Shown here one piece after another: positions 30,962-59,602 of a DNA stretch of 64,000 nucleotides; the stretch's first letter is position 1, and each line of letters opens with the position of its first letter. The position numbers and the translations under genes were made by a program. The stretch is from Bryobacteraceae bacterium (GTDB lineage Bacteria; Acidobacteriota; Terriglobia; Bryobacterales; Bryobacteraceae). The stretch covers positions 1 through 64,000 of the forward strand of contig JACZJQ010000098.1 in NCBI GenBank assembly GCA_014860455.1. The letters are read 5' to 3'. A model generated the notes under the pieces. The model was not told where the DNA came from and made no database searches. It worked only from the letters and a program-made list of their open reading frames with translations.

Positions 30962-33583
30962 CTAAAAGAGTAAGCGAAATCCAAGCTGGAAAACCCTCCC
31001 GTCGTTCAGCGTGTTTGTGATCTTGCCGAACGAAGGTGACGATAGGTTCCGCTGGGGTTCGTCGAACTGCGGCGTATTCGACAGGTTGTAGACCTCGCCC
31101 CGAAGCTGTGCCGTCCAGTCATGCGGCAGGCGGATCTGCTTGACGGCCGATCCGTTCCAATTCCAGATGCGGGCCCGCCGGAAAGTACCCCGGCCCAGGT
31201 TGCCGCGGACTTCGCCGGGCACGATAAAGGAGAATCTGTCCCGCCTGAGGACATCAGTCGCCGTGTCCGGGTGGGCGATCGTAGCGCCTAGGATCGACGG
31301 GTCAACGATGTTGGGACGGTCAGACGGGCCGCCATCCACGTTGCCAAACCCAGGTCCGTCGGCGCCGATATAGAGCGTCGAGGGCGTTCCTTTCTTCCAT
31401 AGATTTACGCCGGAGACCGTCCAGCCGCCCAGGATCGAGCGCATCCACCGGGCGGCGCCGCTCGAAAACGGCACCTCATAGGAATAGCTGGCGGTGAAGG
31501 CGTGCGGCGAATCGAAGTTCGAGTAGCCCTTGCGGTCCTTGAAAGCCTCATACTGCCACTGGCTGCGGCCCTTCACCAGGTCCTGGTTGGCGCCGGTAGC
31601 CGAGAAATCGGGTCCTTCGTCGAGCGCCTTCGAGAAGGTGTAGGCGAATTGGGCCATGAAGCCGCGTTTGGCGGGCAGGTCGAAGGCCAACTGGCCGGCG
31701 TCGAAATAGGCGTTGCCGCCGTTGAGGATGTTGTACGTCTCGAAGTAGCGCGGATCCGGGCGGCGCAGGTTGACCGTGGCCGTTGTCAGCGGAATGCCCG
31801 GCACAGGCTCGGCTCGGTTCTGAATGGTCGAGTTCAGCAGCTTGATGGTCCGCGATCCGATGTATGACGTTCGCATGACTCCGCCCCAACCGAACCGTTT
31901 CTCGATGGAGGCGTTGTACTGGTGCGAGTACGGGGTGGCCAGATCGGGCGAAATCCAGGTGGGGGTGCTCGGATCGGTGGGTTTGAGTGAAACTCCGCCG
32001 AGCAGGTCGGTCAGCACGGGCTGCTGCACGGTGACATACTGCACGCGCGGCATGTTGTTTCGCACCTGCTGATAGGTGACCGGCGGGATCTGCATGAACG
32101 TGGTCGTATACATGCCGCGCACCACCCAGCCGCGGCCTGCCTGCCAGGCGAATGAGAAGCGCGGCGAGAAGTTGTTGAAGTCGCCGTCATACGGGATTTT
32201 GTCGATGCCGTGGGTCTCCACGGGCCGCGAGTCGCCCATCCAGCGGACGCCGTAGTAGATCTGGAACCTGGAGTTCACTTGCCAGCGGTCCGCGATGTAA
32301 GCATTCATGGTGTAATTGGCGAACTCGCGGCTCAGATCGCCGATAGCAACTTCATAGATGGTCGGGATGCCGAGCAGGAAGTTCTCCACCGCCGAGCGGC
32401 CGAAGTTGTTCTGAAACTGGAGATAACCGCGGCTGTTGTTGGATTCGATGCCGGCCTGCCGGAAACGGGTGAAGTCGCCGCCATAGGTGATGGTATGCGA
32501 GCCGGCGCGGGTGGACAATGCCGCGGCGGAACGGATGGTATGTCCGGTGCGGTCGATCGGGAACATCGAATCCGGCCCCAGTTCCTCGATCTGGTGGCCG
32601 AAACGGACGCGCGGCCCGACGGCGTTGGGCTCCGACCGCAACAGCGAGACCCCACGCTGGTATGCGGCCGTCAGGGCAACGCTGGTGGACGGCGAAAGAT
32701 CCCGCGTCCAGGTGACGGCCGTTTTCGTGGTGTGAATATCGGTGTCCGGATTCTGGCCGGCGACGAACTTAAACGCCCGGATCCGTTGGCGGTCGTTCGA
32801 GTAGTTCGCCATCAGGCGCTGGCTGCGGGGCAGGATCAGATCGATGCGGCCCGTGAGTCCAAGGCTGTCAATGCGCTGCGTGGCGTTGGTGTTCAGTGCA
32901 CGGGGGTCGAAGTCGGGCCGGTTGGGGAGTTCAGCGGGGAAGGCGTCGAGGTAGCGCTGGACGATTGCCCGGTTGGCCGGGTCGAGCGAACGGGGTTGGC
33001 GCTCATTGGCCAGCGGTACCAGGACGTTGCCGTTCACCATGCCGCGGATGTCGCGCTGGCTGTAGGTGGTGGTCCAGAAACCGTTGACGCCGGGCAACGG
33101 TCCGGTGAGCCGTCCGCTCATGAGGTTGCGGTGCGAGGGCTTCACTCCGCCCACCTGGAAGAACGTGCGGGCATTGAAAATGCTGTTCTGGTGCCAGTAA
33201 GTCCCCTCGCCATGGACCGCGGATGGCGCCGCTTGCGGGCGCAGACCCGGAACCTCGGTCGCCGGCTGGCCGTGCTCGTTGCCGAAATGCTGCGATTCCA
33301 CGCGCGGCTCGGCGACGGCGGTCGTTGAAGCGCCGACGCGGATGTTGGCCTCCTTGATCGCGTTGGTATCGATCATGTAGACCACGACATTCTCGTTGCG
33401 CTGGGCGGCGGCGCCCATTCTCGGCCGTGACGCGGGTTTCGCCGCCTCCGTCCTGGGCGCGGCGGTGGCATGGCCGTTGGCTGCGGCCTGGCCGGCTGGC
33501 GCGGGCGGAGTCTGGCTGTGGGCTGTCTGGGCGGAAAGAGCGGCCAGCATGGCCAGGCCGACTCCGGAAAGAATTCTCTTCAC
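30962..33583 (-). CDS. Oar-like outer-membrane beta-barrel protein lacking the usual plug
   Basis: 873 residues with a signal peptide and an Ala/Pro-rich N-terminal 100 residues. From about residue 120 it matches the barrel part of acidobacterial TonB-dependent Oar-like proteins (HQNSIFNARTFFQVG, FSPRFSFAWQ, LDEGPDFSATG). It ends in Phe (FQLGFRLLF), as outer-membrane proteins do. The N-terminal carboxypeptidase-regulatory domain and canonical TonB plug are absent, so TonB coupling is doubtful. GTG start at 33583 with TAGAAT nine bases upstream. Confidence 0.85.
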   Translation of the reverse strand: MKRILSGVGLAMLAALSAQTAHSQTPPAPAGQAAANGHATAAPRTEAAKPASRPRMGAAAQRNENVVVYMIDTNAIKEANIRVGASTTAVAEPRVESQHFGNEHGQPATEVPGLRPQAAPSAVHGEGTYWHQNSIFNARTFFQVGGVKPSHRNLMSGRLTGPLPGVNGFWTTTYSQRDIRGMVNGNVLVPLANERQPRSLDPANRAIVQRYLDAFPAELPNRPDFDPRALNTNATQRIDSLGLTGRIDLILPRSQRLMANYSNDRQRIRAFKFVAGQNPDTDIHTTKTAVTWTRDLSPSTSVALTAAYQRGVSLLRSEPNAVGPRVRFGHQIEELGPDSMFPIDRTGHTIRSAAALSTRAGSHTITYGGDFTRFRQAGIESNNSRGYLQFQNNFGRSAVENFLLGIPTIYEVAIGDLSREFANYTMNAYIADRWQVNSRFQIYYGVRWMGDSRPVETHGIDKIPYDGDFNNFSPRFSFAWQAGRGWVVRGMYTTTFMQIPPVTYQQVRNNMPRVQYVTVQQPVLTDLLGGVSLKPTDPSTPTWISPDLATPYSHQYNASIEKRFGWGGVMRTSYIGSRTIKLLNSTIQNRAEPVPGIPLTTATVNLRRPDPRYFETYNILNGGNAYFDAGQLAFDLPAKRGFMAQFAYTFSKALDEGPDFSATGANQDLVKGRSQWQYEAFKDRKGYSNFDSPHAFTASYSYEVPFSSGAARWMRSILGGWTVSGVNLWKKGTPSTLYIGADGPGFGNVDGGPSDRPNIVDPSILGATIAHPDTATDVLRRDRFSFIVPGEVRGNLGRGTFRRARIWNWNGSAVKQIRLPHDWTAQLRGEVYNLSNTPQFDEPQRNLSSPSFGKITNTLNDGRVFQLGFRLLF

Positions 33584-33620: not shown

Positions 33621-34805
33621 TCAATTGACCTCAGGTTTTGACGTGAAGAACTGTTTAAGCATGAGCCAGCCGGACTCGTCGTAACGGGTCTTCAACCGCT
33701 CCTGCCGCTCCGTGCGCGGGTCTCCGGACTGCGGACCCTGCCGGTCCTCGCAGCGTTCCAGCAGCAGCAGCGCGGCTTCGTCGTCGGGCGTACGTTCCAG
33801 CACTTCGTTGAGCCGCTTCATGGCCTCATCGAAGCGGCCCTTCCGCCAAAGGAAGTAGCCGGCGTTGAAGTAAGCAGCCGGGTCAGCCGGATCGGCCTCA
33901 ATGGCTTTGGCGAACGAATCCAGCGCCGATTCCTGGTCGAGCCGGGCCTGGACCGCGCCCAGGTTGTTGTAGACCTCATTCAACGGCGCCTCCGAGGCGA
34001 CCTTCTCCAGCAGGTCCCGGGCCGCCTGGAACTCGCCCAATTGATGGCGGCAAAGCGCGAGGTAGAAGGCGGCTTCACGTGCACGCAGCGCGCCTGGACC
34101 CACCTTCGAGAGCCATCCGGCGGCGGCCCGGTAGTCTTTCCGCTCGAGTTGATAGAGGCCGAGGCGGAGGTTCGGTTCGGGGTAATCGGGCGCCAGACGG
34201 GCGGCGGTGGAAAAATAACGGATCTGCTGCTCGGTGTCGGTGGCCATCAGGCCGCGGATATGATTCTCCATGGCATCAAGGCGGATGCCGGGCCGCGTGG
34301 CGAGGAACGCTTCCTCCGATAGAGCCGATCCGGGGCGAAGCGACTGGAGTAGCTTGTAGGCCAGACGGCTCTGGATTCGCGACAGCTCAGCCAGCGGGCC
34401 TGATTCATCCAACCGGGCGACGCGGCGCATCTGCCGGATGTCGACCACTGAGGCCACCACCCTGAGCCTTTGCCCCTCCTGTCCCGGAGCGGTGAGCGAG
34501 TATTCGCCATGCACCGCCACTCCGGCGCTCGAGTTGATTGCGAGTTCAAGTACGCTGGCTTGTGTCAGCCGGGCGCCCGCCAGGATGCCCATCGACAACA
34601 TGGCGGCCCGCCGCTCATCCGCCGCTACACGCAAGATTCCGTTGGCGGACAAGGCCTCTCCCATGTCCTCGGAGATGCTCTCGCCGATCCAGTTTATATT
34701 TTTAGAATTACTTGAATTGTAAAACGGAACTATAAGCACCGTTTCTGCAAAGATCGGCGCCGAAAGATATATGAACGCAAAAAGGATGCCGGGCAGCCGT
34801 GCCAT
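33621..34805 (-). CDS. Secreted TPR protein with FlgO/CsgG-like N-terminal domain
   Basis: 394 residues. A signal peptide (MARLPGILFAFIYLSAPIFA) is followed by a domain starting VLIVPFYNSSNSKNINWIGE, like the periplasmic CsgG/FlgO-type domain. The C-terminal half is TPRs (PNLRLGLYQLERKDYRAAA, PAAYFNAGYFLWRKGRFDEA). ATG 34805 is inside the loop of a perfect 16-bp inverted repeat whose one arm encodes signal-peptide residues 4-8. A TATACT hexamer is six bases before the ATG and no Shine-Dalgarno is present. Confidence 0.82.
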   Translation of the reverse strand: MARLPGILFAFIYLSAPIFAETVLIVPFYNSSNSKNINWIGESISEDMGEALSANGILRVAADERRAAMLSMGILAGARLTQASVLELAINSSAGVAVHGEYSLTAPGQEGQRLRVVASVVDIRQMRRVARLDESGPLAELSRIQSRLAYKLLQSLRPGSALSEEAFLATRPGIRLDAMENHIRGLMATDTEQQIRYFSTAARLAPDYPEPNLRLGLYQLERKDYRAAAGWLSKVGPGALRAREAAFYLALCRHQLGEFQAARDLLEKVASEAPLNEVYNNLGAVQARLDQESALDSFAKAIEADPADPAAYFNAGYFLWRKGRFDEAMKRLNEVLERTPDDEAALLLLERCEDRQGPQSGDPRTERQERLKTRYDESGWLMLKQFFTSKPEVN

Positions 34806-34838
34806 GGGGTGAGTATAGCAGAGCTGCCCGGCATCCTT
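34782..34838. repeat. Perfect 16-bp inverted repeat around a start codon
   Basis: Arms at 34782-34797 (AAGGATGCCGGGCAGC) and 34823-34838 are exact reverse complements, spacer 25 bases. The ATG of the TPR gene (34805) and the TATACT hexamer (34817-34812) lie in the spacer. On the minus strand the second arm runs into TTTTT, as in an intrinsic terminator. The outer six bases (34833-34838) can also pair with AAGGAT at 34843-34848, so two exclusive foldings are possible. Confidence 0.9.
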
Positions 34839-34871
34839 ATCGAAGGATCCCGTCAAACGGATTCCTATTCG

Positions 34872-35189
34872 CTAATTGAAGACTAGGGTTGTGTTGGTGC
34901 CGCCCAGACGGATCTCGCGGATCTTGTACTTGCCAGCTTCACTGGTGTACCGCACCGACGTGGTGCTGAACTTCGCTTCGCCGGTCTCAACCTTCACCGT
35001 TGCTTCAACTTTCTCTCTTCCTTTCTGAATGATAGCCTTGTCGCTTTCGACCTTCAGTTTGTAGTCGCCAGGCTTCAGTTCAGTGCCGCTCACTACGGAG
35101 GGCTGGAAAAGAGTGACGGTGTGCGTCGAGGCGCTGGCGATCGCGAGCGCGAGAATCAAGAGGGCAAACAGACGGAAAGACATTGTCAT
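34872..35189 (-). CDS. Small secreted protein, unknown function
   Basis: 105 residues. A signal peptide (TMSFRLFALLILALAIASA) is followed by a compact beta-rich domain (VVSGTELKPGDYKLKVE, KIREIRLGGTNTTLVF) of the kind found in many short acidobacterial secreted proteins. AGGAG lies eight bases before ATG 35189; a second ATG is two codons on. The upstream 160 bases to miaA are AT-rich and probably hold its promoter. Its stop is 34 bases from the inverted repeat, which may serve as its terminator. Confidence 0.72.
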   Translation of the reverse strand: MTMSFRLFALLILALAIASASTHTVTLFQPSVVSGTELKPGDYKLKVESDKAIIQKGREKVEATVKVETGEAKFSTTSVRYTSEAGKYKIREIRLGGTNTTLVFN

Positions 35190-35351
35190 CGTGGACACTC
35201 CTGTATGCATTATGGGCACATTTGCGTCATTTATTGCAGATAACTAAATTCAATACGAAGCACACTTTCTATTTGCGCTCCGACTGCCATTGCAACAACG
35301 CCGCAGGCTGCCATCATTTACTAAGACGCAAACAAAGGCCAAGTGTTCCAC

Positions 35352-36314
35352 TCAACAAACCTTCATGAATGTAAATTCGCAGAGGAACGCTGAAACCCGC
35401 GAGGCGGCCGCGCGCACGGTCTCGGGTGCATGGCCGAAGCCCTCGATCCATTCCACCCCGGACTCGCGCCGAAACCATGTGATCTGGCGCTTGGCGTACT
35501 GGCGGGTGCCGATGATGGTCCTTTCGATGGCCTCCGCCTCGCTCATCCGGCCCTGGAGGTAGGCCAGCGCCTCCTTGTAGCCCAATGATTCGAAAGGCTT
35601 GGCCCGAGGCGGGACACCCGCGTCGAGTAAGCCCCTGACCTCGTCCAGCAACCCGCCGCGCCACATCGCCCCGGCCCGGTTCTCGATGGCCCGGTGCAAC
35701 GCATCGCGCGGGGGATTGAGGACCAGCTTCAAGGCGCGATAACCCCGCAGTTCCGCTCGGCCTCCGGCAAAGACCGCCGAGGCGGGGCGGCCCGTGCCGA
35801 TGCAGATCTCGACGGCTCGGGTGAGTTTGTTCAAGTCATTGACGTGGATGCGGGCCGCGCTGGATGGATCCAGGCGGCGCAGCAGGCGGTGAAGAAATCC
35901 GTTGCGGCGCGCTTCCCGCAATGCGAGCGCCTTCCGCAGCGCCGGATCGCGCTCGGGTCCGGGGGCCAGACCCTCCAGCAGCGCCCGGACATAGAATCCT
36001 GTGCCGCCGGCGATCACGGGCAGCTTCCCGCGACTGGCTATATCCTCGACCGCCGCCGCCGCCATCCGCGCCCACTGCCCGGCGTTGGATTGCTCCGAGG
36101 GATCGAGGACATTGATCAAATGGTGCGGAACCTCGGCCAGCTCGGCGGCCGCCGGCTTGGCGGTGCCGATGTCGAATCCACGGTAGAGCTGGAGCGAATC
36201 GCAGTTGACGATCTCGCCGCCGAATTCGAGCGCCAGCCGGATGGCGAGGTGGGACTTGCCCGAAGCCGTGGGCCCGGCGACTACAATCAGGGGCAGTTGA
36301 CCCGATTCCGGCAC
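35352..36314 (-). CDS. miaA: tRNA dimethylallyltransferase
   Basis: Adds the isopentenyl group to A37 of tRNAs reading UNN codons. Motifs: P-loop GPTASGKS, DSLQLYRGFDIGTAKP, AGGTGFYVRALLEGL and near the end GTRQYAKRQITWFRRE. Length about 320 residues, normal for the family. The start is uncertain: GTG 36314 gives the expected N-terminus; a TTG at 36341 would add nine residues. Divergent from the TPR gene at 36436. Confidence 0.95.
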   Translation of the reverse strand: MPESGQLPLIVVAGPTASGKSHLAIRLALEFGGEIVNCDSLQLYRGFDIGTAKPAAAELAEVPHHLINVLDPSEQSNAGQWARMAAAAVEDIASRGKLPVIAGGTGFYVRALLEGLAPGPERDPALRKALALREARRNGFLHRLLRRLDPSSAARIHVNDLNKLTRAVEICIGTGRPASAVFAGGRAELRGYRALKLVLNPPRDALHRAIENRAGAMWRGGLLDEVRGLLDAGVPPRAKPFESLGYKEALAYLQGRMSEAEAIERTIIGTRQYAKRQITWFRRESGVEWIEGFGHAPETVRAAASRVSAFLCEFTFMKVC

Positions 36315-36435
36315 GAAACCAGTGTAGCTGGTGCAACCCAAAACGACTGATCCCGCATCAGATATAGTGATGATAAGCGGAGTCGCCGTGTATCCGGCGA
36401 TCCAACGGCTGAAGAGGGAAGGGTCCAGGACGAAA

Positions 36436-41885: not shown

Positions 41886-41923
41886 GAGGGCCGCTGGAGC
41901 GAGTCCGGCGGCCCTCTTCTTTT
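41886..41923 (+). terminator. Intrinsic terminator after the MFS gene
   Basis: A 9-bp stem GAGGGCCGC (41886-41894) pairs with 41908-41916, followed by TTCTTTT. It separates the MFS gene from the convergent hemQ gene. Confidence 0.85.
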
Positions 41924-47456: not shown

Positions 47457-49475
47457 GTGGACCGTGAAAACCCCCTTCTGCGCTGCCCTCGCAGCCTTCC
47501 CTTCGACCGCGTCGAGGCCGATCAGATCCGTCCCGCGCTGGAAGCCCTGATCGAATCCGCCCGCGCCAGGCTCGACGGGATCGCGGCGCTCGCCGCCTCC
47601 CGGACGTTCGACAACACCATGGGCGCCCTCGACACTGCCACCGAGGATCTCGACATCGCCGTCTCCGTCGTCCGCCACCTCGAAGGCGTCGCCACCACGC
47701 CCGAACTGCGGGACGCCTGGAACGAGGTCCAGCCGGCGGTGATCCAGTTCTATTCCTCCATTCCGCTCAACGGGGCGCTGTGGGGGGCAATCAAGGAGTA
47801 CGGCGCAACGGACGAGGCCGAGGCGCTGACCGGCGTCCGCAAACGCTTCCTGGACAAGACGATCGAGAGCTTCCGCCGCCACGGCGCCGACCTCTCGGAG
47901 GAAGACAAGCAGACGCTCGAAGCCATCGATGTCGAACTGGCGACAGTCACCACGCATTTCGCTCAAAACGTCCTGGATGCCACGGCGGCTTGGGAATACG
48001 TCATCACGGACGAGTCGAAGCTGGCCGGGTTGCCTGAGTCGGCCAGAGCCGCGGCCAGGGACTCGGCGTCGTCGAAGGGCATCGAAGGCTGGCGGTTCAC
48101 GCTCCAGCAGCCCAGCTACGTCGCCGTGATGACTTATCTGGACGACGCGCCGGTGCGCGAACTGTTCTACCGGGCTTACAACGCCCGTGCGGCGGCTGAA
48201 AACGCGGAACTCATCCCTCGCATCCTCGACCTGCGCCGCCGCAAGGCGCAACTGGTCGGCTACGCCGATTTCGCCGATTTCGCCACCGCTGACCGCATGG
48301 CCGCCAGCGGGGCCTCCGCGGCCGGATTTGTCGAAGAAATGCGCACGAAGACTGAGGCGGCTTTCCAGCGCGAAAATTCCGGGTTGATCGAGTTCCGACG
48401 CGACCGCGAAGGAGCCTCCGCTGGAATGGAGCCGTGGGATGTCGGCTATTGGGCGGAGAAGATGCGCACCGCTCTCTATGATTTCGACGAGGAGGATCTG
48501 CGGCCGTACTTCTCGCTCGACACGGTCCTTGAAGGCCTATTTGGCCTGTGTTCGCGCCTGTTCGGCATCCGCATCGTCGCGTCAGGCGGCGCGCCGGTGT
48601 GGCATGAATCGGTCCGCCATTACCGCATCGAGGATGCCGGCGGCGAGACGCTGGCCCACTTCCACGCCGACTGGTTCCCTCGCGAAACCAAACGCGGTGG
48701 CGCCTGGATGGACTCCTTCATCACCGGCGGACCCTCCACAACCGGCTTCACCCCCCATGCCGGATTCGTTTGCGGCAACCTGACGCCGCCGCTGCCTGAC
48801 CGCCCGTCCCTACTCACCCACCGCGAAGTGGAGACCATCTTCCACGAGTTCGGCCACCTGCTGCACCATTGCCTGAGCCGCGTCGAGATCCGTTCACTGG
48901 CCGGGACCAATGTCGCCTGGGATTTCGTCGAACTTCCCAGCCAGATCATGGAGAACTGGTGCTGGGATCGTGAATCGCTGGATCTCTTCGCCCGCCACTA
49001 CCAGACAGGCGAGCCGGTTCCCGCGGAGATTTTCGCGAAAATGTCCAGGGCGCGCACGTTTCGCGCCGCCAATGCGCAGATGCGCCAGCTCGGTTTCGCC
49101 AACCTGGATCTGGCCTTGCACAGGGAGTTCGACGCGGGCCAGCCGATAGTCGCTCTGGCAAACCGCCTGCTGGCCCCGTTCGTCCCGGCTCCGCTGCCCG
49201 AGGGCTACGCCATGATCTGCTCGTTCTCCCACCTGTTCGCCGACCCGGTCGGCTACGGCGCAGGATACTACAGTTACAAATGGGCCGAAGTGCTCGACGC
49301 CGACGCCTTCACCCGGTTTCGCCTCGATGGCCTGTTCAACCCCGATACGGGACGCGCTTTCCGTCAGTTGATCCTCGAAAAGGGCAACAGCCAGGAGCCC
49401 GTGGAATTGTTCCGGTCTTTTATGGGACGGGACCCGGATCCCTCGGCGCTGCTCACCCGGCTCGGACTGAATTAG
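47457..49475 (+). CDS. M3-family metallopeptidase (oligopeptidase)
   Basis: Zinc oligopeptidase of 672 residues that degrades short peptides in the cytoplasm. The active site FHEFGHLLHH has His463, Glu464 and His467, and the third ligand is in DFVELPSQIMENW about 28 residues later. GAGYYSYKWAEVLDADAF near the C-terminus is typical of oligopeptidase A/Dcp enzymes. Start GTG 47457; the leader has little Shine-Dalgarno character. Confidence 0.95.
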   Translation: MDRENPLLRCPRSLPFDRVEADQIRPALEALIESARARLDGIAALAASRTFDNTMGALDTATEDLDIAVSVVRHLEGVATTPELRDAWNEVQPAVIQFYSSIPLNGALWGAIKEYGATDEAEALTGVRKRFLDKTIESFRRHGADLSEEDKQTLEAIDVELATVTTHFAQNVLDATAAWEYVITDESKLAGLPESARAAARDSASSKGIEGWRFTLQQPSYVAVMTYLDDAPVRELFYRAYNARAAAENAELIPRILDLRRRKAQLVGYADFADFATADRMAASGASAAGFVEEMRTKTEAAFQRENSGLIEFRRDREGASAGMEPWDVGYWAEKMRTALYDFDEEDLRPYFSLDTVLEGLFGLCSRLFGIRIVASGGAPVWHESVRHYRIEDAGGETLAHFHADWFPRETKRGGAWMDSFITGGPSTTGFTPHAGFVCGNLTPPLPDRPSLLTHREVETIFHEFGHLLHHCLSRVEIRSLAGTNVAWDFVELPSQIMENWCWDRESLDLFARHYQTGEPVPAEIFAKMSRARTFRAANAQMRQLGFANLDLALHREFDAGQPIVALANRLLAPFVPAPLPEGYAMICSFSHLFADPVGYGAGYYSYKWAEVLDADAFTRFRLDGLFNPDTGRAFRQLILEKGNSQEPVELFRSFMGRDPDPSALLTRLGLN

Positions 49476-56054: not shown

Positions 56055-57599
56055 ATGAGACGCCTTCCAGTTCTCCTCATCGCCGTAACTTGTTTCGCGC
56101 AGGCTCCCGACCCCAAGGTGGTCAAGCAGGCAGCGATGGAGATGGCCCAGGGCAGGGCGAAGCTCACCCAGCAGATGGTGGATTCCATCTTCAGTTTCGC
56201 AGAGCTTGGCTATCAGGAGGTCGAAACCAGCCGCTACCTCACCGGACTCCTTGAAAAGAACGGCTTCCGCGTCACCCGAGGCGTCGCCGGCCTCGACACC
56301 GGTTGGGTGGCCGAATGGGGATCCGGCAAACCCGTCATCGGCCTCATGGCTGACATCGACGGCCTGCCCGAAACCTCCCAAACCCCCGGCGTCGCCTATC
56401 ACAAGCCCCTTGTCGACGGCGCACCCGGCCACGGCGAGGGCCATAACGCCGGCCAGGCCCTGCAGGTGACAGCCGCTCTTGTCGCCAAGGACCTCATGCA
56501 ACGCTATAAGGTCTCCGGCACCATCCGTGTCTACCCCGGCGTCGCTGAAGAATTGATCGGTAGCCGGACTTATATGGTCAACGCCGGCCTGTTCAAGGAC
56601 GTCGATGCCATGCTCTCGGCCCACATCGCCAATGACTTCGGCGTCACCTGGGGGCCCTCCGGGACAGGCCTCGTCAGCGTTGAATACACCTTCCGCGGCC
56701 GCAGCGCCCACGGCGCAGCCCCTTGGAATGGCCGCAGCGCCCTTGATGCCGTCGAACTCATGAACGTCGGCTGGAATTACCGCCGCGAACACCTCCGCAC
56801 AGACCAGCGCTCCCACTACGTCATCACCGCCGGCGGCGACCAGCCCAACGTCGTGCCGCCCATCGCCAAGGTCTGGTACTACTTCCGCGAGTGGGATTAC
56901 GCCCGCATCCAGGAAATGCACTCCATCGGCACCCGCATCGCCCAGGGCGCGGCCATGATGACCGACACGACAATGGAAGAACGCGTCCTCGGCGCCGCCT
57001 GGCCCGGCATGTTCAACCGCTCGCTCGCCGAAGCCATGGGCCGCAACATCTCAGCCGTCGGCATGCCCAAATGGAGCGAAGACGATCAGACGATGGCCCG
57101 CGCCGCCCAGAAGGAGCTTGGCGTCAAGGAGTCCGGCCTCAAGACCGAACCCCAGGGCGTCCGCGACGGCAATCAGGGCGAACGCAGCTATGGCTCCGAC
57201 GACATCGCCGAGGTCGGCTGGAACGTCCCTACCGTCGTCCTGCGCTACCCCGGCAACATCCCAGGCATGATCGGCCACCACTGGTCAGCCGGCATCGCCA
57301 TGGCCACCCCCATCGCCCACAAGGGCACCACCGCCGGCGCCGCCGCCCAGGCCATGACGGTCCTCGACCTCATGCTCGACCCCTCCCTCCTCGCCGAGGC
57401 GAAGAAGTTCTTTGCCGAACAGACCCGCGAGACGAAGTGGAAATCCCTCATCCCCCTCGAAACCAAGCCGCCCACTTACCTCAACCGCGAACGCCAGCAG
57501 CGCTACCGCCCCGCGCTCGAAAAGCTCTACTACGACCCGTCGCGCTTCTCCACTTACCTCGAACAACTGGGCGTCACCTACCCGACTGTCAAGAAATAA
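56055..57599 (+). CDS. Secreted M20-family amidohydrolase, AbgB-like
   Basis: 514 residues with a short signal peptide (RRLPVLLIAVTCFAQ). Metal-binding positions appear as MADIDGLPE, PGHGEGHNAG and VAEELIGS. The insert domain contains GRSAHGAAPW. It resembles aminobenzoyl-glutamate utilisation protein B and related amidases rather than a general peptidase. TAAGAT lies seven bases before the ATG; there is no Shine-Dalgarno. Confidence 0.85.
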   Translation: MRRLPVLLIAVTCFAQAPDPKVVKQAAMEMAQGRAKLTQQMVDSIFSFAELGYQEVETSRYLTGLLEKNGFRVTRGVAGLDTGWVAEWGSGKPVIGLMADIDGLPETSQTPGVAYHKPLVDGAPGHGEGHNAGQALQVTAALVAKDLMQRYKVSGTIRVYPGVAEELIGSRTYMVNAGLFKDVDAMLSAHIANDFGVTWGPSGTGLVSVEYTFRGRSAHGAAPWNGRSALDAVELMNVGWNYRREHLRTDQRSHYVITAGGDQPNVVPPIAKVWYYFREWDYARIQEMHSIGTRIAQGAAMMTDTTMEERVLGAAWPGMFNRSLAEAMGRNISAVGMPKWSEDDQTMARAAQKELGVKESGLKTEPQGVRDGNQGERSYGSDDIAEVGWNVPTVVLRYPGNIPGMIGHHWSAGIAMATPIAHKGTTAGAAAQAMTVLDLMLDPSLLAEAKKFFAEQTRETKWKSLIPLETKPPTYLNRERQQRYRPALEKLYYDPSRFSTYLEQLGVTYPTVKK

Positions 57600-57619
57600 G
57601 AGACCCGCGCATCCGTTGA

Positions 57620-57625
57620 TATACT
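57620..57625 (+). promoter_or_regulatory. Candidate -10 box, TATACT
   Basis: TATACT ends six bases before the GTG at 57632. The same hexamer at the same distance precedes the ATG at 34805 on the other strand. Suggests a leaderless transcript. Confidence 0.4.
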
Positions 57626-57631
57626 CGCCTC

Positions 57632-59602
57632 GTGACCCTGACGCGTCTGGCCGCATGCGCGGCCCTTTTCGCCATGCCCTGCCTCGCTGAACTCGCAATC
57701 GTCGATGCCAACGGCCGCCTCGCAGCCATGCTCTATCGCGGCCAGGACGCCCAGATCCGCACCGATCTCGTCCTGCCATCCAAAGGCTGGGCCAAGACCG
57801 TCGGCCTGTCATCAGCCGAAGGCATGACAGTCACCCGCGGCGACGAATCCGTTTACCAGGGCCGCCTCGCCCTCGACGCCACCCAAAAACTCCAATTCAC
57901 CCAGCGCATCTCTGAAATCGACAGCAGGGTCCGCATCACAGTCGCCTACACAGCCCTCGCCGAACTCGCCGCCGAAGGTCTCTACTTCCGTGTCAACATC
58001 CCCTGGCGCGAGTTCAACTCAGGCACCGCGGAAATCGGCGGCCGCACCGTCACCCTGCCCACCGAACTGCCCGCCAACGTCAACCTGCTCTACAACGCCT
58101 CGGCCACTGAACTCCGCGCCATGAGCCCCGCCGGAGACCTCTGGTGGTCGGCCACGATGAACGCCGCCCTGCCCGTCAACCTACAAGACAAATCCACAGA
58201 ATCGCCCAAAGCTTTCACCTACTGGATCTACCTCCACCGCGGCACGCTGCCCTCCGGCACGCAAGGCTCGTTCACAATCGACCTCGCCATCGACGGCATC
58301 CCCGACACCACCTCCGCCGCCCTCTCCATCGAACCCGAATCCTCGCGCTACCTCTTCCACGGCTTCGGCGGTAACTACGCCTTCCAGATCGAATCCCCCG
58401 TCACCGCTTACACCCTCGAGCACATCAATTCCCGCTGGGCCCGCACCGAAATCACCCTCGTCGACTGGGAACCCGAAAACGAAAACTCCTCCACCGCCGA
58501 CACCGACTACGGCCGCTTCATCGAGAACGATAAGCCCGGCTCGCGCCTCCGCCACGAGTTCGAACTCATGCGGACGCTCAAGCGGAAAGGCATCCCCTTC
58601 GCCGCCTCCGTCTGGCGTCTGCCGGAATGGATGCTCGCCGACCGCGCCACCAAAGGCCCCAACGATCGCCAGCGCATCATCGATCCCGCGATGTTCGACG
58701 AGCTGATCGAATCCCTCACCGCCTACATCCTCTATGCCCGCGACTTTTACGGCGTCGAGCCGGACCTCTTCTCATTCAACGAGCCCGACCTCGGCATCCG
58801 CATCCTGCTCACCCCCGAAGAGCACCGAGACGCCGTCCGCCGCATCGGCTCGCACTTTGCGTCCATGGGCCTCAGCACCAAAATGCTGCTCGGCGACACC
58901 AGCCATGCCCGTGGCACCCACGAGTACGTCCTGCCCGCCGCCGAAGATCCCGAAGCCCTCCAGTACGCCGGCGCCATCTCTTTCCACTCGTGGAACGGCG
59001 CATCGCCCGAGCAGTATCAGGCCTGGGCCGATCTCGCCGAACGCCTCGGCCTCCCGCTCCTGGTCGCCGAACTCGGCACCGACCCCAGCGGCTGGCAGGG
59101 CCGCGCCTACGACTCCTACTGGTACGGCATCAACGAGCTTCAGCTCTATCAGGACATCCTCACACACGCCCGCCCGCAAGGCACCATGTACTGGGAGTTC
59201 ACCGCCGATTATTCCCTGGTCCGCCTTCAAGGTGATGAGATCATCCCCACGGGCCGCTTCTGGCTCACCAAACAGCTCTCCAACCTGACTCCGCCCATGT
59301 CCACCGCCCTGGCCTCGGCATCGAGCCACGACAAGGTCATGGTCACCGCCTTCCGCGCCGGCGATGTTTACACGATCCACATCGCCAACATCTCCGCCGC
59401 CCGCGACGCCGTCCTCACCGGCCTGCCCGCCGAGATCGCATCCTGGCGCGCCGTCCTCACCACCGAGGACTCGGGCTTCAAGGAACTCGATCCCCTCACC
59501 CCCGCCGATGGCAGCCTCTCTTTGCAGCTCCCTGCCCGCTCACTGCTGACCCTGACGAATCTGCCCGTGCCGCAAGCAGAGCCCGTCCCGCCTACCCCTT
59601 GA
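57632..59602 (+). CDS. Secreted glycoside hydrolase, GH30-like (clan GH-A)
   Basis: 656 residues. A signal peptide ([16 protein letters not shown]) precedes a beta-sandwich domain (about 20-240), then a TIM barrel. The acid/base Glu384 is in SFNEPDLG and the nucleophile Glu480 is in LLVAELGTD, as in GH30-type enzymes. A C-terminal beta domain follows. Substrate not identifiable. It starts with GTG and overlaps the convergent leuS by 11 bases. Confidence 0.8.

Follow-up and report, generated by a model that had tools for sequence, protein, structure and literature searches.

The exact inverted repeat at the start of the secreted TPR (tetratricopeptide-type) protein gene in the window, i.e. the whole 64,000-nucleotide stretch of DNA analysed from an apparently uncultured Bryobacteraceae bacterium, probably serves the upstream miaA-p115 unit as its intrinsic terminator, with the leaderless promoter and the start codon of the next gene lying inside the structure; on the sequence evidence set out below we give this reading a probability of about 65%. 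A polymerase arriving from upstream would transcribe both arms, a hairpin of 17–23 bp would form, and the RNA would be released at the U tract within the first signal-peptide codons of the TPR gene. The TPR gene itself would be transcribed from within the hairpin, where the extended −10 box TGCTATACT lies, and the spacing suggests a start at the A of the ATG or close to it. Because a leaderless mRNA carries no 5′ arm, the terminator would have no effect on this transcript. Any read-through RNA would in addition have its AUG hidden in the stem, both in the window species and in the species closest to it. We infer termination, its efficiency and the transcription start from this arrangement.

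On the minus strand the elements follow one another as AAGGATGCCGGGCAGC-TCTGCTATACTCACCCCATGGCACG-GCTGCCCGGCATCCTT-TTTGCG, and their positions are collected in Table 1. The original prediction of exact 16-bp arms, 25 bases apart and enclosing a TATACT box and an ATG, was confirmed in its coordinates; the box occupies 34817–34812 of the minus strand, is preceded by TGC and lies, like the ATG, between the arms. The 3′ arm spans the last part of codon 3 through codon 8 of MARLPGILFAFIYLSAPIFAE and is followed on the sense strand by TTTTT, again as described beforehand, except that the first two T's pair with the AA of the other arm. Three unpaired U's and then GCG follow the stem in the window species, a short to modest tract. 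Pairing on the minus strand exceeds the 16 bp of the exact repeat and amounts to 17 + 6 pairs around a 9-nt loop (−41.9 kcal/mol; extended arms of 24 nt with 88% complementarity), far enough for the stem to take in the AUG and half of the −10 box in the window species.

Table 1. Positions of the hairpin, the start signals and the neighbouring genes in the window
Feature	Position	Strand	Remark
Secreted TPR protein gene (394 aa + stop)	33621..34805	−	
Probable termination tract, TTTTT	34779..34783	−	First two bases overlap the stem
Hairpin 3′ arm, GCTGCCCGGCATCCTT	34782..34797	−	Within signal-peptide codons of the TPR gene
ATG of the TPR gene	34803..34805	−	Box spacing, conserved N-terminus
Extended −10 box, TGCTATACT	34812..34820	−	Ends 6 nt before the ATG; family-wide conservation at such spacing
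Hairpin 5′ arm, AAGGATGCCGGGCAGC	34823..34838	−	Pairing runs on inward to the TGC of the box
Alternative small hairpin, ATCCTT-CGAT-AAGGAT	34833..34848	−	Judged incidental
Upstream gene p115 (longest ORF 115 aa; small protein whose N-terminus resembles a signal peptide)	34872..35219	−	Conserved neighbour
miaA-type gene (IPP transferase), heads the conserved order miaA-p115-TPR	35352..36341	−	Pfam PF01715; synteny

The repeat is the sole perfect one of at least 12 bp with a spacer of up to 40 in the 64-kb window; in five first-order Markov copies made from it there were 0 or 1 such repeats, none longer than 13 bp. As RNA, the 106 nt of the region fold at −54.1 kcal/mol (z = −7.4), and none of 200 shuffles was equally stable. 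The RNA strand thus carries a G+C-rich hairpin of a stability beyond chance, and it does so just 3′ of a gene on the same strand, as is seen with intrinsic terminators: the stop codon of p115, the upstream gene already placed at 34872, occupies 34874–34872, 33 nt before the 5′ arm. Typical intrinsic terminators are shorter than stems of 17–23 bp with loops of 9–15 nt, and a simple terminator scan did not report this hairpin, its loop and tail rules excluding such a shape. The smaller ATCCTT/AAGGAT hairpin that had been put forward as a competitor does exist, but it is far weaker (about −11 versus about −42 kcal/mol) and is absent from the sister species G003; an attenuator switched by this fold was rejected for these reasons. 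A dispersed genomic repeat was rejected, as the 201-base region matches its own genome once only, and so was a known RNA family, the Rfam covariance models giving no match at E values up to 1.

The gene order miaA-p115-TPR is kept at many of the orthologous loci, and the first two genes are presumably transcribed as one unit. Orthologues of the TPR gene were found in 218 of the 237 genomes of the window's family. The closest named relative of the protein is that of Candidatus Solibacter sp. PR.3.38 (85% identity), the other named ones being labelled Bryobacteraceae or Bryobacterales (family within Acidobacteriota); named genomes scanned with the single TPR protein as query yielded no matches, and a six-row alignment used in its place yielded 51 named loci. 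A TTG at 34856 was rejected as the start of the TPR gene, as the resulting extension is not conserved and the box would fall inside the gene. Among the 71 loci with a callable start, the TGnTAnACT box ends mostly 6–8 nt before the start codon and retains at least six of its seven defined bases in 58, a count that is somewhat favourable since starts were picked partly by the box. The offset control, which shares the same start codons, gave 0, 2, 1, 0 and 0 boxes at 10 to 50 nt further upstream in the same 71 loci, and Shine-Dalgarno-like 4-mers occur in only 3 of the 58. As the extended −10 box stands family-wide at usually 6–8 nt from the start codon, the TPR gene is probably leaderless. Attenuation of the TPR mRNA by the repeat, one of the roles first suggested, is unlikely: with the probable promoter inside the hairpin the transcript would be without the 5′ arm. 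At a group of more distant loci, several of them labelled Acidobacteriaceae (L210, L212, L214, L222, L225, L230 and L231), a TATAAT box replaces TGnTAnACT at 6–10 nt before the called TPR start, and the leaderless-type spacing of the gene may extend beyond Bryobacteraceae.

The hairpin surrounds the box and the ATG at the same place in all four genus genomes compared, and it is also found in about a dozen further Bryobacteraceae genera with arm sequences that are largely different. The sister species G003 retains it with a single compensatory exchange (C-G to U-A), three changes that affect one side only and one outer pair disrupted. The arms of the other two genus members, G001 and G002, are largely different, GGCCGGCGATCCTCTGC/GCAGAGGATCGTCGGCC and CAGGCCGGtcCGCCTCTGC-type, and stand around TAAACT and the ATG; in the MAFFT alignment of the four genus members the arms of one sub-pair did not line up with those of the other, and covariation was therefore tallied by starting at the loop and moving outward. 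A Bryobacter genome has the arms GAGTGGCCTGGGATCGTTGC/GCGGCGATCCCAGGCCACTT, followed by TTATTTTTG. The compensatory changes that were to be looked for in relatives are present, once as a base-pair exchange in G003 and elsewhere as pairing kept with different arms. Because the same arrangement recurs in relatives with quite different arm sequences, these data suggest that the hairpin itself is what selection keeps.

In the test to which we give the greatest weight, the pairing was assessed by comparing the 32 bases 5′ of the box with the first 36 bases of the gene, either from the same locus or with the arms swapped between loci, and by scoring it as a gapless helix, which ignores bulges; this score replaced a duplex energy over long stretches that proved too noisy. 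A helix score of at least 30 was reached at 11 of 71 loci, against 0.83 expected from swapped arms (p < 5e-5), and one of at least 35 at 8 loci against 0.2 expected, while the mean score of the own arms was reached by none of 20,000 permutations; the loci are related, so that these p-values are optimistic, the events are not fully independent and the statistics ignore the tree. Another 42 loci with a called start, most of them from more distant relatives, included 3 that scored at least 30 against 0.12 expected (p = 0.0016), 18 of 60 loci having given no start call and some of the called starts being possibly wrong. Loci with a score of at least 25 span 13 genera, the window's own included. 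Swapped arms pair somewhat too (mean score 17), and many share GCCGC/GCGGC-like runs, as would be expected if a G+C-rich signal-peptide start merely happened to complement the sequence upstream of it. However, a score of 30 is attained by about 1% of swapped pairs, far from the proportion seen with own arms, the excess was repeated in the further set, and the window holds no other perfect repeat of such size, all of which makes coincidence very improbable. The same comparisons bear on the suggestion of an operator, in which a dimeric regulator would bind the inverted repeat as DNA. The repeat does surround the −10 box and overlap the promoter, but its arms are almost wholly different between species of the genus and between genera with complementarity kept, arm sequence being conserved among orthologues in the closest species only; in addition, one arm lies in coding sequence and T-rich tracts follow. 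We find such an operator barely credible.

Two further observations point to termination. A T-rich tract follows the 3′ arm in most of the strong cases and is longer in several relatives than in the window species, where the U tract comes directly after the stem and is modest. The best 9 bases contain 6.6 T at hairpin loci versus 5.0 T at the others (p = 1e-4), a difference to be read with the fact that all TPR loci encode hydrophobic signal peptides, for which T-rich codons are expected anyway. Secondly, a separate hairpin between the p115 stop codon and the promoter was found at 0 of 18 loci with a straddling hairpin versus 22 of 36 others (Fisher p = 5e-6), in a tally made by hand over loci with p115 upstream and a gap of at least 44 nt, with a straddling score of 25 as the divide and separate hairpins called at a shuffle p of 0.05 or less. 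Taken by itself the first set gave p = 6e-5 and the second p = 0.11, which is not significant. Relatives with a plain G+C-rich hairpin between p115 and the promoter instead include L004, L035, L036 and L047; many relatives have neither kind, and neither was found at loci with no more than about 40 nt between the end of p115 and the TPR start. Straddling and separate hairpins thus seem to substitute for one another, which would be expected if both terminate the upstream unit. A hairpin that is cut by a double-strand RNase, or that guards a 3′ end after termination elsewhere, and so separates the two messages, would also need a long, near-perfect double strand kept despite sequence change; the T-rich tracts right after the 3′ arm nevertheless point to termination, and we consider a processing or protecting role highly unlikely. 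Computation shows that the hairpin and the box exist, that the pairing is conserved while the sequence changes, and that separate terminators are excluded where the hairpin is present. Of the roles offered at the outset, that of a terminator for the gene upstream has good comparative support, from the pairing kept with changed sequence, the T-rich tail, the conserved tandem gene pair and the exclusion.

In the window species and in G003 the AUG is predicted to be unpaired at only 0–0.1 in read-through RNA and to be largely open in leaderless RNA. This would suit a hairpin whose main effect is to hide the start codon in read-through RNA, with little termination, so that the gene's own promoter alone yields protein, and phage T4 gene e offers a precedent (PMC3014915). 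In G001 and G002 read-through RNA, however, only the G of the AUG is predicted to pair, its A and U staying in the loop, and the hiding of the start codon therefore appears not to be the conserved part. Translational shielding would also leave the T-rich tails and the exclusion with separate terminators unexplained, and as the principal role of the hairpin it appears unlikely.

If the repeat is an intrinsic terminator, it could be one instance of a recurrent gene-boundary device, in which about 60 bases end one unit, start the next, silence read-through and encode a signal peptide, all invisibly to the gene's own transcript, and in which the straddling hairpin has been gained, lost or re-made repeatedly within Bryobacteraceae in exchange for a plain terminator; we hold this wider reading at about even odds. 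A junction as compact as this could close one unit and open another yet not attenuate itself, with signal-peptide codons in double duty as terminator stem and U tract, and it provides a testable model of how a leaderless gene stays free of read-through transcription. Surveys usually look for terminators in the non-coding DNA that follows genes, and a leaderless gene offers no 5′ leader for regulatory RNA; a terminator nested around a leaderless promoter would escape such surveys.

Several other repeats were noted. A second, weaker case on the plus strand of the window (57597–57670) has arms CCGCGCAT (57605–57612) and ATGCGCGG (57655–57662), right after a stop codon at 57599; they stand on either side of TGATATACT and of the GTG (57632) that begins the gene of a secreted 656-aa protein, and are followed by CCCTTTT; its fold alone is not significant (z = −0.69). 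Similar G+C-rich hairpins (GAGGGCCGCTGG...) stand just after an ORF at 41886–41916 of the window, there followed by TTCTTTTG, and at 48984–49026 of G003 contig 6 (in L122), and are probably the same conventional terminator. A very long, imperfect and intergenic inverted repeat, with arms of ~52 nt ending CCCCCACCTGACGGTGGGGG, lies at about 30990–31118 of G002 contig 9 (L109), and a related CCTGACGGTGGAGG repeat is found at about 241147 of the same contig.

The arrangement at the TPR gene can be set beside several known systems. With intrinsic (Rho-independent) terminators it shares a G+C-rich hairpin that leads into a T tract and comes after the preceding gene's stop codon; it differs in that the stem is longer than usual and encloses the next promoter and start codon, and in that the 3′ half and the T tract are coding sequence. 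One survey predicted that, in its three Acidobacteria genomes, 9.7–19.4% of genes are leaderless and have a TANNNT box some 12 bp ahead of the start (PMC3160421), and the TPR locus agrees with these genes in the type of box, in its distance of 12 bp, in having no Shine-Dalgarno sequence and in belonging to a phylum that uses such starts. The difference is that other leaderless-type sites in the window's genome have no surrounding hairpin: the pattern TGCTANACT-N4-10-ATG occurs at 16 sites there, versus 5 for the reversed control pattern, and the 15 sites other than that of the TPR gene have helix scores of 18 or less. Over 454 kb of the genus the TPR gene was the only one with a strong hairpin around a leaderless-type start, and a general feature of leaderless-type genes in the genus or genome was rejected on these grounds.

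The literature search found no case of this kind, which is weak evidence of novelty as subscription literature lay mostly outside its scope. Two systems come close. In E. coli, where the frd and ampC operons overlap, the frd terminator doubles as the attenuator of ampC (Grundstrom and Jaurin 1982, cited in PMC6045580). The upstream operon's terminator overlaps the control region of the next gene there, as it would at the TPR locus, but ampC is transcribed from a promoter within the last frd gene, ahead of the hairpin, so that its mRNA carries the hairpin and is attenuated, whereas at the TPR locus the promoter would lie inside the hairpin and the gene's own mRNA would be without the 5′ arm. 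When T4 gene e is transcribed from its late promoters, the mRNA is likewise missing the 5′ strand of the hairpin by which translation of the long early transcripts is blocked (PMC3014915). The leader hairpins of gene e and I-TevI are similar to the present one in that long incoming RNA folds and transcripts starting within the region of the 5′ strand escape; they differ in that the hairpin blocks a ribosome binding site and no termination is described (PMC3014915), whereas the TPR locus has no ribosome binding site, has a T tract after the stem and appears not to conserve the hiding of the AUG. The TPR arrangement would be a combination of the ideas seen in frd/ampC and in T4 gene e, joined to what is probably a leaderless gene.
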